In this document: piece after piece, positions 83-34,373 of the stretch | How positions within the stretch are numbered: the first letter of the stretch is position 1 | Layout of the letters: every line of letters starts with the position of its first letter | Assembly: GCA_947088675.1 (NCBI GenBank) | Contig: CAMUHN010000035.1 | Location: 1-34,509, forward strand | DNA: 34,509 nt | Source of the DNA: an uncultured Roseburia sp. | GTDB taxonomy: Bacteria; Bacillota; Clostridia; Lachnospirales; Lachnospiraceae | Reading direction: 5' to 3' | Made by a program: the position numbers and the translations under genes | Notes under the pieces: model-generated | What the model saw: only the letters and a program-made list of their open reading frames with translations | What the model was told of the DNA's origin: nothing | Databases searched by the model: none

Positions 83-1282
83 CTAAATTACGCGTATCAT
101 CTGCACGATTTCTGACAGCTGTTTTGATTTCTCCTCGTAGGTTTCTTCGGTCATCGCATCGGTAAAAAATCCAATTTCCTCGGACAGGTCATGTACTTCC
201 AAATACTCTACGTCGCCAAATACGGCTTCTATGGACTCTTTCTGATCTGTTGTACGAACAAAATAGCGGTTTTTCATTTTTCCGGGATCTGACAGAATTA
301 ATTTCTCTGATTTCCATTCCACTGGCAGATTCTTTCCGACATTTTTTGCAATTTCTACCATATCGGCAACCACTGCGCTCGCAGTCGGCAGTTTTCCCGC
401 TCCGCTCCCATAGAACATCGCATCTCCCAAAACATTGCCATGTACAAAAATTGCATTAAATACGTCGTTAACGGCATAAAGCGGATGGGACGGCTCTAAA
501 AGGTAAGGCGCTACTCTGACTGCATATCCGTCATCTGTTTTTTTACTTACTGCAAGAAGTTTAATTGCCCGGCCCGCCATCTTTGCATACTTCATATCTT
601 CGGCTGAAATTTTTGTAATTCCCTCTGTCGGAATATCCTCGTAATCAACCTGCTGTCCGCTTACAATCGAAGTCAATATCGCTATTTTACGACAGGCATC
701 GTATCCTTCGATATCGGCTGTCGGATCTTTTTCCGCAAATCCTTTTTCCTGCGCATCTTTTAAAACCTCATCAAATGCCATTCCGTCCTGTGACATTTTT
801 GTCATCATATAGTTTGTCGTCCCGTTCACAATACCCGTAATTTCCTCTATGACATCTGCAGTCAGGCAGGACAATAGAGGACGGATAATCGGAATACCGC
901 CGCCAACGCTTGCCTCAAACATAAAGTTTACGTTCTTTTCTCTTGCAAGTTGAAGCAGTTCCGCTCCTTTCACTGCGACCAGCGCTTTATTGGATGTGGT
1001 AACATGCTTGCCGGCTTTGAGCATTTCTTTTACAAATGTATAAGCAGGTTCCACACCGCCCATTGTCTCCACTACTATTTTTATTTCCGGATCGTCTGCG
1101 ATGATCTTATAATGATCAACAATTTTATCCTGAATCGGTGATCCGGTAAAATCTCTGATATCCAGAATATATTTTACCTCTATCTCTTCTCCAACACGTT
1201 TCGCGATGCTCTTCCGGTTTACTTGCAATACTTCTACTACGCCGGAACCGATTGTGCCGTATCCCATTACTGCTGCTTTCAT
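83..1282 (-). CDS. hom: Homoserine dehydrogenase
   Basis: Reduces aspartate semialdehyde to homoserine with NAD(P)H, the branch point to threonine and methionine. The 399-residue protein opens with a Rossmann nucleotide-binding motif (GYGTIGSG, residues 7-14). It carries the family's catalytic-domain signatures, including VNGTTNYMM and the stretch around GFAEKDPTADIEGYDACRK, and ends in a roughly 80-residue ACT-like tail. The start at 1282 follows AAAGGGAATAAT. An in-frame ATG ten codons upstream has no ribosome binding site and would put extra residues before the Rossmann strand. It lies downstream of an ACT-domain gene on the same strand, separated by a structured repeat (1313-1439). No terminator is visible before the window edge. 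Identity is confident; feedback regulation through the tail is inferred from the family. Confidence 0.96.
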   Translation of the reverse strand: MKAAVMGYGTIGSGVVEVLQVNRKSIAKRVGEEIEVKYILDIRDFTGSPIQDKIVDHYKIIADDPEIKIVVETMGGVEPAYTFVKEMLKAGKHVTTSNKALVAVKGAELLQLAREKNVNFMFEASVGGGIPIIRPLLSCLTADVIEEITGIVNGTTNYMMTKMSQDGMAFDEVLKDAQEKGFAEKDPTADIEGYDACRKIAILTSIVSGQQVDYEDIPTEGITKISAEDMKYAKMAGRAIKLLAVSKKTDDGYAVRVAPYLLEPSHPLYAVNDVFNAIFVHGNVLGDAMFYGSGAGKLPTASAVVADMVEIAKNVGKNLPVEWKSEKLILSDPGKMKNRYFVRTTDQKESIEAVFGDVEYLEVHDLSEEIGFFTDAMTEETYEEKSKQLSEIVQMIRVI

Positions 1283-1312
1283 TATTATTCCCTTTCCTTT
1301 CCTGACTTCCAT

Positions 1313-1439
1313 GTCGCGGCTCTGCCGCGACTCATATCCGCGCGGAGAATTCCCTGTTTTTGGGGATTCTCTGGTGTGAGACTTAGAACTTCTTCGCGAA
1401 ACAGCCTTTGCTGTGAGCGATTAGAAGTTCTTCTCACAC
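1313..1439 (-). repeat. Structured intergenic repeat element, copy 1
   Basis: Read on the minus strand, the element starts in the TAG stop codon of the ACT gene. A long stem pairs GTGTGAG (1374-1380) with CTCACAC (1433-1439) and AGAACTTC (1385-1392) with GAAGTTCT (1424-1431). Its apical part holds a small hairpin (ACAGC-AAAG-GCTGT). A second hairpin follows (about 1344-1372), then the core GCGGATATGAGTCGCGG (1325-1341), whose end forms an 8-bp stem with 1313-1320. The second copy at 29210-29345 has the same core and fold. Family name unknown; it could be a MITE-like repeat or a structured RNA. Confidence 0.7.
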
Positions 1440-1882
1440 TATTCGCTGCCCAGTATTTTCACATAATGAATACCGTCCTGTTCCTCGATATGAGCAACCA
1501 TTTCCTCAATATCCCCGGTCTGCGGCAAAACATCAATGCTAAGCGTCAGCGATGCAATTCCGTTAATCGGGATGCTCTGATGAATTGTTAAAATATTTGC
1601 ATGAACTTCAGCCACTGCCTTTAACACGACCGAGAGTAAACCGGGTTCATCGTCCAGCTGAATCACCATTGTGATCGTCTTGCCTTTCGCCGTCTCATGA
1701 AACGGAAAAATATCGTCTTTGTACTTATAAAAAGAACTTCTGCTGATTCCCATTTTTTCGGCAGCTTCCTGTACGGAAGCTGTTTTGCCGGAATCCAGCA
1801 GTCTCTTTGCTTCTACGACCCTTAACAAAACATCCGGAACCGCCCGTTCTTTTAATACAAAAAAACGTCCTTTTTCCTGCAT
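1439..1882 (-). CDS. ACT domain-containing protein (PheB-like)
   Basis: A 147-residue protein. Residues 1-60 include a helix-turn-helix-like segment (VQEAAEKMGISRSSFYKYKDDIF) and residues 70-147 form an ACT amino-acid-binding domain (TITMVIQLDDEPGLLSVVLKAVAEV...). This is the layout of the PheB/UPF0735 family, found next to homoserine dehydrogenase in many Firmicutes. It is probably an amino-acid-sensing regulator, but its ligand is unknown. The start at 1882 follows AGAGGAAAGG. A longer reading frame to 2089 would overlap the ydjH-like gene and has no ribosome binding site. Its stop codon is the first triplet of the structured repeat. Promoter TTGCGG-17 nt-TATGAT lies at 1947-1975. Confidence 0.9.
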   Translation of the reverse strand: MQEKGRFFVLKERAVPDVLLRVVEAKRLLDSGKTASVQEAAEKMGISRSSFYKYKDDIFPFHETAKGKTITMVIQLDDEPGLLSVVLKAVAEVHANILTIHQSIPINGIASLTLSIDVLPQTGDIEEMVAHIEEQDGIHYVKILGSE

Positions 1883-28768: not shown

Positions 28769-29149
28769 TTAGTTGTTTAATGTAGCCAGCAGTGCGCCTG
28801 CTTCCACCATATCCCCGACATTAACGTTTATGCTTGCCACTGTTCCGTCCTCGCTTGCGACAACCGGCGTTTCCATTTTCATAACTTCAAGAATCAAAAT
28901 CGTATCGCCTCTTTTTACGGAAGCTCCCACACTTGATTCGATCTTAAATACTTTGCCCGCTGCCCCGGCTTCTATCTTAACATTTCCTGCGCCGCCGGCT
29001 GCCGGTGCGCTTGCTGCCGCTTTCGGCGCTGCTGCCGGCGCCGCTGCGCGTCTTGGCGCTGCCGCCGCTGCCGGTGCGCTTCCCGCAGCAGTCTCTTCTA
29101 CCGTTACATCGTAAACATTTCCGTTGACCGTAATTGTATAACTTTTCAT
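28769..29149 (-). CDS. Biotin carboxyl carrier subunit
   Basis: A 126-residue protein. Residues 1-20 form a short beta segment, 21-54 an Ala/Pro-rich flexible arm, and 55-126 a biotinyl domain. EVMKMETP places the biotinylated lysine at Lys91, 35 residues from the C-terminus as is usual. It shuttles carboxyl groups from the carboxyltransferases to OadB. It follows the structured element at 29210-29345 in the oadG-carrier gap and starts after AGGAGG. Confidence 0.95.
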   Translation of the reverse strand: MKSYTITVNGNVYDVTVEETAAGSAPAAAAAPRRAAAPAAAPKAAASAPAAGGAGNVKIEAGAAGKVFKIESSVGASVKRGDTILILEVMKMETPVVASEDGTVASINVNVGDMVEAGALLATLNN

Positions 29150-29209
29150 TTTAAATTCCTCCTAATATTAAATTAACATAGTTCCCTGTGATGTTCCATC
29201 CATTTTCCA

Positions 29210-29345
29210 CCGCGACTCATATCCGCAACGTGAACTTTGTTCACGTGTGAAACTCAGTACATCCCGGCGCGTGAACCTGTTTCGCGTTTTGCCCCCTGGC
29301 AATGAGCAAAAGCTCGTAAACGAGCCTTGGATGTACTGTTCACAC
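29210..29345 (-). repeat. Structured intergenic repeat element, copy 2
   Basis: Starts in the TAG stop codon of oadG. GTGTGAA (29245-29251) pairs with TTCACAC (29339-29345) and CAGTACATCC (29255-29264) with GGATGTACTG (29329-29338). Inside are hairpins GCTCG-TTTA-CGAGC and TTGCC-AGGG-GGCAA. CGTGAAC-AAA-GTTCACG follows, then the 17-nt core GCGGATATGAGTCGCGG (29210-29226) shared exactly with copy 1. Stem bases differ from copy 1 in compensating pairs. Confidence 0.7.
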
Positions 29346-30070
29346 TAACGCCTGCGTATCGACCGCACCACAAATCCGTCTGCCGGTACGCCCTCGCTTG
29401 CTGCAACAGCGGCTGCAATCACTGCTGCCAGCTCCAGATCGTCTGTAAGCGTCTCCTCGACTGCTGGCTGCGGCGCCGCAACCGGTTCCCTTTTCTCCGG
29501 TACAGTTTCTTTTGCTGCCGCTGATTTCTGCTGCACCGAACCGATAAAACGGAAGCAGTAAATAATCAGGCTGATCAGAATCAATACCGCAAATACGGTT
29601 CCCATTCCAAGCAGCGTGTTCATTCCGGCTTTTGACATTTTCTCGCCCATGGTATAAATCAGATCCGCATTGGCGTCTGTCGGCTGCAGCTGCTCCGCCG
29701 CATAATTATATTTGAATACGAATGTCACACAGATATCTCTTTCTTCCATCAGTGCAATCTGCTCGAGTGTGATCGTATCCTGCGCTTTTGTAATTGTAAA
29801 TTCACCGAGTCCCTGGTACTGCCCCTGTTCTCCTGCTACAGCATTCCATGTTGTCACTAAATTTTTTATCACATCATCGTCTATCGTCTCGTAATATGCT
29901 TTCTGCTCTTCTGTCATGCTGGCGAGCACTTCGACATTCTGCTGCGCATAATTCTCAAAATCCGCATATTTCATGCCGTAATATTCGACATCTTTCGGGT
30001 CTGTCCCACATGCCGCCAGGCCAAAGACCATAAATACAAGACAAAGTAAAAGAGATAATTTTTTCTTCAT
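29345..30070 (-). CDS. OadG-like gamma subunit with lipoprotein N-terminus
   Basis: A 241-residue protein. Residues 1-21 form a lipoprotein signal with lipobox LAAC. Residues 22-150 make an extracytoplasmic domain of unknown type. A membrane helix follows (GMGTVFAVLILISLIIYCF, about 155-175), then a Pro/Glu-rich linker and a C-terminal LAAVIAAAVAASEG...FVVRSIRRR tail, which are the conserved OAD-gamma parts. Ordinary OadG is about 80-100 residues and lacks the outside domain. It anchors the soluble subunits to OadB. The stop codon TAG begins the structured repeat. Confidence 0.82.
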   Translation of the reverse strand: MKKKLSLLLCLVFMVFGLAACGTDPKDVEYYGMKYADFENYAQQNVEVLASMTEEQKAYYETIDDDVIKNLVTTWNAVAGEQGQYQGLGEFTITKAQDTITLEQIALMEERDICVTFVFKYNYAAEQLQPTDANADLIYTMGEKMSKAGMNTLLGMGTVFAVLILISLIIYCFRFIGSVQQKSAAAKETVPEKREPVAAPQPAVEETLTDDLELAAVIAAAVAASEGVPADGFVVRSIRRR

Positions 30071-33623: not shown

Positions 33624-34373
33624 TCACGCTACGATTTTCGACCGGATATCAATATCGTCAAAGGTCTTCTCCTGTGCAATTATAATTTTACCTGTCTTCA
33701 TCAATTCCAAAACGGCCAAAAACATGACAATTACTTCCATTTTTCCCATCTGTGCTTCCAGCAGGCTCCGAAAACTGAATTGACTGTGTACCTGGCAGTA
33801 CGCTTCCAGATATGCCATTTTCTCTTCCAGCGACACTTCCTCTTTCTCGATTTTGCCGAATCCGGAACGGATTGGATCAATCTTGTCCGCCTGTTTTTTC
33901 ATAATCGTTCGGAAAATCCGGTTTAATTTCGCCAGCGTCAAATCGCTCACCAGCTCGGATAAATTAACCGGTTCCTCATATTCCAGCACTTCGGGCGGAA
34001 TGGTAGGCTCTTTAAATAAAACACGCTCCGCATCAATCTGACGATCCTTTAATTCATTGGCCATACATTTATACATTTTATATTCCAATAGCTGACGCAC
34101 CAGCTCGGCCCTTGGATCCTCCGACTCTTCCTCCTCTTTTTCAGGCGCGGGCAAAAGCATGCGAGACTTAATATCAATCAGCGTGGCAGCCATAACCAGA
34201 AATTCACTCATTACATTTAAATCCTGGCGTTGCATTTCAGCTATGTATTCCATATATTGGTTTGTAATTTCTACAATCGGGATATCGTAAATACTGACCT
34301 TATTTTTTTCCAGAAGGTGCAGCAGCAGATCCAGCGGCCCCTCAAACGCCTGTAATTTTACTGTCATTTCCAT
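33624..34373 (-). CDS. scpA: Segregation and condensation protein A
   Basis: A 249-residue kleisin that bridges the Smc heads. The N-terminal signature FEGPLDLLLHLLEKNKVSIYDIPIVEITNQYMEYI is clear. The middle is acidic (EKEEEESEDPRAELV), and the C-terminal winged helix includes FLAVLELMKTGKIIIAQEKTFDDI. The start at 34373 (MEMTVKLQ) follows GAGGAGGGG; a longer frame of eight codons runs through that site. Forms an operon with scpB. Confidence 0.96.
   Translation of the reverse strand: MEMTVKLQAFEGPLDLLLHLLEKNKVSIYDIPIVEITNQYMEYIAEMQRQDLNVMSEFLVMAATLIDIKSRMLLPAPEKEEEESEDPRAELVRQLLEYKMYKCMANELKDRQIDAERVLFKEPTIPPEVLEYEEPVNLSELVSDLTLAKLNRIFRTIMKKQADKIDPIRSGFGKIEKEEVSLEEKMAYLEAYCQVHSQFSFRSLLEAQMGKMEVIVMFLAVLELMKTGKIIIAQEKTFDDIDIRSKIVA

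Follow-up and report, generated by a model that had tools for sequence, protein, structure and literature searches.

The question raised by this locus is what two similar intergenic elements are, and at which level their shared fold is maintained. They lie in the window, by which we mean the whole 34,509-nucleotide stretch of DNA from an uncultured Roseburia sp. that was analysed. An earlier note had described them as sharing a 17-nt core and a branched stem in which bases change in pairs. Both elements were found with the coordinates and sequences it gave; they read on the minus strand, copy 1 from 1441 to 1310 and copy 2 from 29347 to 29201, in the direction of the flanking genes, and in each the first bases are the TAG that stops the upstream ORF. 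The core, GCGGATATGAGTCGCGG, occurs exactly twice (1325-1341 and 29210-29226, both minus strand), against a mean of 0.11 in shuffled sequence when up to three mismatches are allowed. The long branched stem was recovered in copy 1 and copy 2, with z scores against shuffles of -7.86 and -5.18, respectively, on the minus strand. The paired changes within it were verified (GTGTGAG/CTCACAC against GTGTGAA/TTCACAC, and AGAACTTC/GAAGTTCT against AGTACATCC/GGATGTACT), as was a second hairpin, unrelated in sequence between the two, that precedes the core in each copy.

Copy 1 as an entire element (1310-1441, minus strand) matches model positions 1-131 of our model R1 with 154.8 bits, a score to be read with the fact that both window copies are among the 23 sequences that built R1. 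Its first bases, TAG at 1439-1441 (minus strand), are also the stop of the upstream gene, an ORF at 1439-2089 on the minus strand with weak ACT-domain matches; by eye, TAG is likewise the stop at this junction in about 15 of 22 orthologues that have no element. All further parts of copy 1 lie on the same strand. Hairpin 1, the long branched stem, spans 1374-1439 and is supported by its fold, by covariation and by a match of 89.3 bits to a second model, R2, which consists of hairpin 1 only and was built from 59 copies. The fold then gives hairpin 2 (AGAGAATCCC..GGGAATTCTC, 1345-1371). The 17-nt core at 1325-1341 proved to be the single-stranded leader of hairpin 3 (GCGGATATGA) together with its 5' arm, and hairpin 3 itself is complete here (GTCGCGGCAGAGCCGCGAC, 1313-1331), with a predicted fold whose arms covary in other copies. 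The right end, ATGGAAGTCAGG at 1301-1312, is a worn form of the family's ATGGRGGTTAG end, which resembles a ribosome-binding site. Downstream follows the gene for homoserine dehydrogenase (83-1282, minus strand), which starts at 1282 as in its homologues. The longest ORF for this protein begins at an ATG at 1312, at the end of hairpin 3, so automatic annotation may add ten residues to it (window 1282-1312).

Copy 2 (29201-29347, minus strand) matches R1 with 58.0 bits and an E-value of 3.7e-14. Here the TAG at 29345-29347 (minus strand) combines the element's first bases with the stop of the oxaloacetate decarboxylase gamma chain (ORF 29345-30070, minus strand). On the same strand, the fold places hairpin 1, with additional inner stem-loops, at 29245-29345 and hairpin 2 at 29230-29244; the latter has a different sequence, GTGAAC..GTTCAC, and the same module was seen at two further loci (L051 and L056). 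The core at 29210-29226 (minus strand) is intact and the 3' arm of hairpin 3 has been lost. The next gene, beside decarboxylase subunits, encodes a biotin carrier protein (28769-29149, minus strand).

The two copies belong to a sizeable family. In the following, G000 denotes the window's genome, G039 a relative, and L-numbers individual loci. With copy 1 as query, 49 stretches of G000 were returned at E of 10 or less, 41 of them with E below 1e-5, a count that takes in partial copies and tandem units, and 15 nt of the core with at most one mismatch occurred 12 times against zero for the reversed pattern. R1 matched 18 of 116 relatives, G000 included: 17 genomes of the genus (n=62) and one from another genus, G065, which R2 also finds. 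Both G000 and G039 hold at least 29 copies by the number scored. Across the family Lachnospiraceae, R2 found hairpin 1 in 34 of 397 genomes, representing 29 of 334 genera, with at least 13 copies scored in the richest. Seven contigs of G000 (C12, C21, C25, C59, C61, C72 and C106) terminate inside an element copy or a few bases from one. The repeats therefore appear to interrupt the assembly, which makes the copy counts minimum values. A pattern scan of genome contigs gave 15 stretches. Among them L015, in an uncultured Roseburia MAG, proved to be a genuine copy, and inspection of L020 and L024 showed chance matches. The queries used had zero matches in plasmid, phage and viral collections, and the decarboxylase beta subunit as query against viral contigs returned nothing relevant.

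From 184 R1 matches we used 141 distinct copies, some of them orthologous to one another. We excluded duplicates, matches that begin within the model or are truncated at a contig end, and some that were weak or had internal deletions (for example L010; L042 at 564-661 and 840-928; L065; L066; L073 plus strand; L132 minus strand; L148 at 695-804; L050 at 1352-1404). The earlier note had recognised no named family, and none was matched: Rfam 15 had zero matches in the window at the gathering threshold, and permissive searches with seven loci and with window positions 1200-1500 gave three and three matches, all far below gathering scores. A search of the open-access literature found no paper pointing to this repeat family.

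A complete element is approximately 120-160 nt long (untruncated aligned rows span 117-162 nt) and contains three hairpins. An element opens with a stop codon, either TAG or a TGA at +5; then come, in order, hairpins 1 and 2, GGATWTGA, hairpin 3, ATGGRGG and TTAGYGTG. TAG precedes hairpin 1 in 91 of the 141 copies, and hairpin 1 itself is bounded by YGTGARAAG..stem..CTAAGTYTCACRC. Hairpin 2 comes in unrelated kinds, such as AGAGAATCCC..GGGATTCTC or GTGAAC..GTTCAC; GGATWTGA, between hairpins 2 and 3, is single-stranded; and the arms of hairpin 3 vary (GTCGCGGC/GCCGCGAC, GTCACAGC/GCTGTGAC, GATTCCGC/GCGGAATC). Modules are swapped, truncated and tandemly repeated among copies. In tandem arrays the terminal TTAGYGTG doubles as the start of the next unit, and the units keep the same register. 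Many copies in relatives keep hairpins 1 and 2 and have a different 3' part; in some copies from other genera the whole order is preserved, hairpin 3 and the GRGG end included (e.g. L286, L289, L295 and L327). No terminal inverted repeat of the whole element was apparent: by eye, the left end (TAGYGTGAG) and the right end (GGTTAG) are not inverted copies of each other. A TA precedes GYGTGAG in many copies; the clean pair of sites L058/L268 has no second TA at the right end.

The note had read its paired changes as what selection on RNA or cruciform structure would leave, and had named the lack of further copies, or stem changes that do not compensate, as grounds for giving the idea up. Further copies are plentiful, and conserved pairing extends far beyond the first two. 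In 59 hand-picked hairpin 1 sequences, 92.8% of 1,411 cells are standard pairs, compared with 34-44% for slid versions of the structure, and 20 of the 24 pairs have changed on both sides (206 cells); the cells come from related sequences and are not independent events. None of 500 shuffles attained the observed values of pairing or covariation. The ends of hairpin 1 were set by outer-stem pairing, so helix 1 leans towards being paired; helices 2, 3 and 4, which played no part in choosing the sequences, are paired in 92.4, 78.4 and 95.3% of cells. When 109 distinct copies were aligned by fitting them to the model, which biases the result towards the modelled structure, 96.2% of cells were paired, with two-sided changes at 21 of 24 pairs. 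RNAalifold, run on the first alignment, returned 14 pairs only, and these are the structure inside R1. The evidence for compensatory changes in hairpin 1 is very strong.

To see at which level selection acts, G-U and A-C cells were also counted. In hairpin 1, 27 cells held G-U and 26 held A-C (over 21 of the 24 pairs), and a smaller set gave 22 against 31. G-U is thus no commoner than A-C, and hairpin 1 gives no support for a function of the sense RNA. In hairpin 3, represented by 32 distinct arms, G-U was found in 22 cells and A-C in 11.

The position of the element relative to genes was examined using the longest open frame ending near the element start, frames of at least 100 codons being counted. 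In the genus set, 101 of the 141 copies had such a frame, and in 68 of these the stop lay at -6 to +18 of the element start. The 68 anchored stops comprise 36 cases of the element's TAG, 13 of TGA at +5, two of TAA at +5, three of TAA at +18, and 14 stops at -2 to -4. A second set, from other genera, contained 58 copies out of 60 matches (the antisense L307 and L314 were left out) and was collected after the stop pattern had been noticed; here, the stop fell within the same interval in 35 of 50 copies. At random same-strand positions in the same loci it did so in 98 of 616. When later tandem units with a far stop (10 and 5) are set aside, the proportions become 68/91 and 35/45, and we prefer the unfiltered figures. 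The orientation is also strongly one-sided: among the 122 of 141 genus copies with 350 bases on each side, both neighbours are on the element strand in 72 and both are reversed in 4, and in the other genera the corresponding numbers are 43 and 1 of 57.

At the right, a CRTGGNGG-type end was present in 62 copies, 11 of which were recognised as running into another unit, leaving 51 that are non-tandem (the motif may catch a few ends inside genes, and the tandem filter misses some units). An ORF of at least 60 codons starts 3-12 nt past the right end in 24 of these 51, in 20 cases at 5-6 nt, compared with 603 of 3,980 random positions in a control that includes intragenic positions; in the remaining 27 a well-placed downstream ORF is absent. 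In about half of these copies, then, the element looks like the supplier of a ribosome-binding site to the next gene.

Orthologous junctions with and without the element were compared, largely by eye. Among 59 matched genomes, 25 orthologous homoserine dehydrogenase junctions were compared; the family is present in G000, in G039 and, as a remnant at the stop, in G020, and no copy was seen in the others. Of 30 orthologous decarboxylase junctions, those in G000, G039 and G049 carry copies, those in G020 and G053 carry them behind another hairpin, and in most of the remainder no copy was seen. The cleanest presence/absence pairs between G000 and G039 are L058/L268, L040/L281 and L129/L030. The empty L058/L268 site in G039 reads GGGGAATAG A ATGGGAAAAAG, a gap of a single nucleotide (TAG A ATG), and the filled site in G000 reads TAG-element-GGAGGTTGGC-ATG, the element bringing its own GGAGG. 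At L129/L030, TAGTGTGA flanks the element on both sides in G039, and a single TAGTGTGA stands at the stop codon in G000. This 8-bp direct repeat was seen in one site pair only, and no recurrent target duplication was found. In L032/L272 and L044/L274 the upstream protein differs in its final one or two residues; these pairs are not clean, as the G039 site continues into other sequence or the contig of G000 stops. The filled and empty pairs show that the element was either gained or lost between a stop and the next start.

Many of the junctions are otherwise occupied. In approximately 10 of 15 displayed G000/G039 pairs, a different or worn hairpin repeat was seen by eye in G039 at or near the same stop, so the junctions appear to be long-lived sites of turnover, and a slowly changing old occupation is also possible. 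At the stop of the decarboxylase gamma chain (window 29347), other hairpins are found in G004 (L215), G019 (L214) and G047 (L218), so that different species have unrelated repeats in this one place. The hairpin TAGCAGCATGAAAATC..GATTTTCATGC follows this stop in G019 and G047, and GAAGTTTGC..GCAAACTTC was observed in G004, G019 and G047. A second repeat family was noticed in G039 (L139, L145, L148 and L099), with the form TAGCGTGAAATTAAAAATTTCACAATCCTGATTTGTATGCCCGCC..GCGGGC and also beginning with TAGCGTGA; it occupies similar stops as well as gaps between units of the first family.

Two readings of the left-end motif were tried and rejected. The first took TAGCGTGA (TAGYGTGA) at the ScpA stop (window 33624-33631, minus strand) as the footprint of a lost copy; since 22 orthologues end alike, mostly in ...IVA and a stop, it is taken as chance. 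The second held that TAGYGTGA is a widespread target motif that pre-existed at stops. Counts of TTAGYGTGAR in 62 genomes were 33 in G000, 59 in G039, 18 in G052, 17 in G059, 16 in G023 and at most 11 in the others, and because they are high in few genomes the motif appears to be carried mainly by the elements. G052 and G059 are rich in the motif, yet R1 has a single match in G059, and the list of genomes it matches does not include G052.

Taken together, these elements are probably non-autonomous mobile repeats of the ERIC/BOX kind that have become adapted to operon gene junctions in Lachnospiraceae. They are non-coding, multi-copy, dispersed and intergenic, and they differ in presence and absence at orthologous sites. 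Copy number, structure, anchoring, orientation and presence/absence were all observed directly, and the high copy number, patchy spread, tandem units, filled and empty sites, stop anchoring, orientation bias, well-placed ORFs at the right end and covariation speak for this reading; counted against it are the lack of a transposase partner, where Y1_Tnp was searched, of an apparent inverted repeat at the two ends and of a recurring target duplication, together with the different or worn repeats at the same stops and the 27 right ends that have no well-placed ORF. Y1_Tnp (PF01797, IS200/IS605-type) is absent from G000 (87.6% complete) and from G039. It is absent from 10 of the 17 carriers in the genus, these two included, and present in 7, compared with 22 of all 62 genus members, and the carriers in other genera are evenly split (present in 7 of 14, absent in 7). 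Y1 transposases are thus missing from many carriers and are not an obligate partner, and mobilisation of the REP/RAYT type is not supported by their distribution.

On whether the structure is selected as RNA or as DNA, the evidence is divided. The orientation on the gene strand and the anchoring at stop codons favour the transcript, while in hairpin 1 G-U does not exceed A-C, as would be seen under a strand-symmetric (DNA) constraint or if single copies decayed neutrally. The transcript-level evidence could be carried further, to an intercistronic regulatory RNA kept by the host, whose copies, having spread a single time, are now retained for their function, the hairpin after the stop sensing terminating ribosomes and setting the processing or expression of the next gene. 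Strong conservation of structure and anchoring in two sets agree with this, as do the same-strand orientation and the fact that the oxaloacetate decarboxylase and homoserine dehydrogenase positions are common to several species. We nevertheless consider it unlikely: the same junctions are without the element in most relatives compared, modules are exchanged, shortened and repeated in tandem, and, with G-U not above A-C in hairpin 1, an individual copy does not appear to be under constraint as sense RNA.

That the element acts at the level of DNA, through cruciform or single-stranded hairpins or as a REP/BIME-like protein site, with its place after stops reflecting nothing but tolerated insertions, strikes us as distinctly unlikely. 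The covariation is nearly pure Watson-Crick, with G-U equal to A-C in hairpin 1, and one precise empty site retains a single TAGTGTGA, both in line with this account; hairpin 3, however, has twice as many G-U as A-C cells, an orientation bias of 72 against 4 and 43 against 1 is unexpected for a symmetric DNA site, and the placement is narrower than one would expect from tolerance alone. Transcription terminators or attenuators duplicated around the genome are a very improbable explanation, for despite the stable hairpins immediately after genes, T-runs are rare (after hairpin 1 in 3 of 183 copies and after hairpin 3 in 10 of 112), copy 1 has zero terminator-like sites, and most copies lie between same-strand genes.

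Returning to mobile repeats adapted to gene junctions, the ends of the element can be recognised in the sequence as apparent translation adapters. The left end offers a stop TAG and, five bases on, a TGA in a second frame, and the right end offers GGRGG and often a start within TTAGYRTG. With a stop-bearing left end and a Shine-Dalgarno-like right end, a sense copy placed on a stop codon would still terminate the upstream gene and could start the downstream one. We infer that copies spread by transposition in trans through a separate enzyme, and that the inverted repeats may be retained for spreading, for folding in mRNA, or for both. By analogy with reports on ERIC and REP, the hairpins of an inserted copy would lie in the message between two cistrons and might be expected to alter ribosome release, mRNA cleavage or decay. 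A bolder version, possible but doubtful in our view, is that this is a class of element specialised for cistron boundaries, inserted at, or mainly retained at, stop codons in the sense direction, with its ends serving as translation adapters. If so, such elements could enter operons with gaps of one base and leave neither gene broken, and insertion may be coupled to translation or to the recognition of single-stranded hairpins.

The pairs of the same junction with and without the element are natural comparisons, and they make the question of a tolerated parasite versus a working part of the mRNA directly testable. There is also a practical consequence for annotation, as false start codons can arise from the elements, and the assembly has several contigs that end in one.

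Among the known systems, the BOX elements of Streptococcus pneumoniae are likewise modular, dispersed small repeats that supply stop codons: in one strain, 36 of 58 BOX-overlapping CDSs take their stop from the element (PMC3049150). The supply of stop codons is therefore not new. Modules and host differ, and BOX has terminal inverted repeats resembling ISSpn2; ORFs formed by BOX are reported to be without good Shine-Dalgarno candidates (PMC3049150). Set beside BOX, the Lachnospiraceae elements show stop anchoring in 68 of 101 and 35 of 50 copies.

ERIC elements carry long terminal inverted repeats and duplicate a TA target, features not established in the elements described here, and unlike these they are enterobacterial. 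De Gregorio and colleagues are said to have reported in 2005 that ERIC sequences overlapping or adjoining stop codons prefer one orientation. ERIC (also called IRU) is 127 bp long, is co-transcribed and destabilises upstream mRNA in an orientation-dependent manner (PMC2229807; ERIC also in PMC3049150).

REP and BIME are, like our elements, extragenic palindromes; they are shorter, at 20-40 bp (PMC3733652), and their Y1 transposase is absent from G000. Our rows did not resemble short palindromes of 20-40 bp with a GTAG-type tag, as they span 117-162 nt and fold into three hairpins. In E. coli, 446 of 4,072 REPs are found no more than 15 nt from a stop codon (PMC12306157), and those at that distance are reported to stall ribosomes (PMC12306157, citing Liang 2015). 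More generally, stem-loops are enriched just after stop codons, with families such as Ype and Efa (PMC1590033). NEMIS/Correia and RUP are small non-autonomous repeats as well, and NEMIS RNA stem-loops have been proposed as RNase III targets; hosts, sequences and ends are different, and the extract of that paper mentions for them no arrangement of three modules with a ribosome-binding end (PMC2229807). The TAACTGA repeats of Beggiatoaceae are intergenic, place stops in all forward frames and in some cases overlap the stop of the upstream gene; unlike the present elements they are 7-nt direct repeats, lying for the most part close to start codons and seldom accompanied by a Shine-Dalgarno sequence, and are not hairpin modules (PMC4679880).

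Stop-overlapping small repeats have been known from a few model bacteria (BOX, ERIC, REP), and the present set spans a major family of gut bacteria patchily. What is new here is the family itself, how tightly it is anchored in each of two sets, the layout that joins a stop to a ribosome-binding site, and the patchy spread over Lachnospiraceae.
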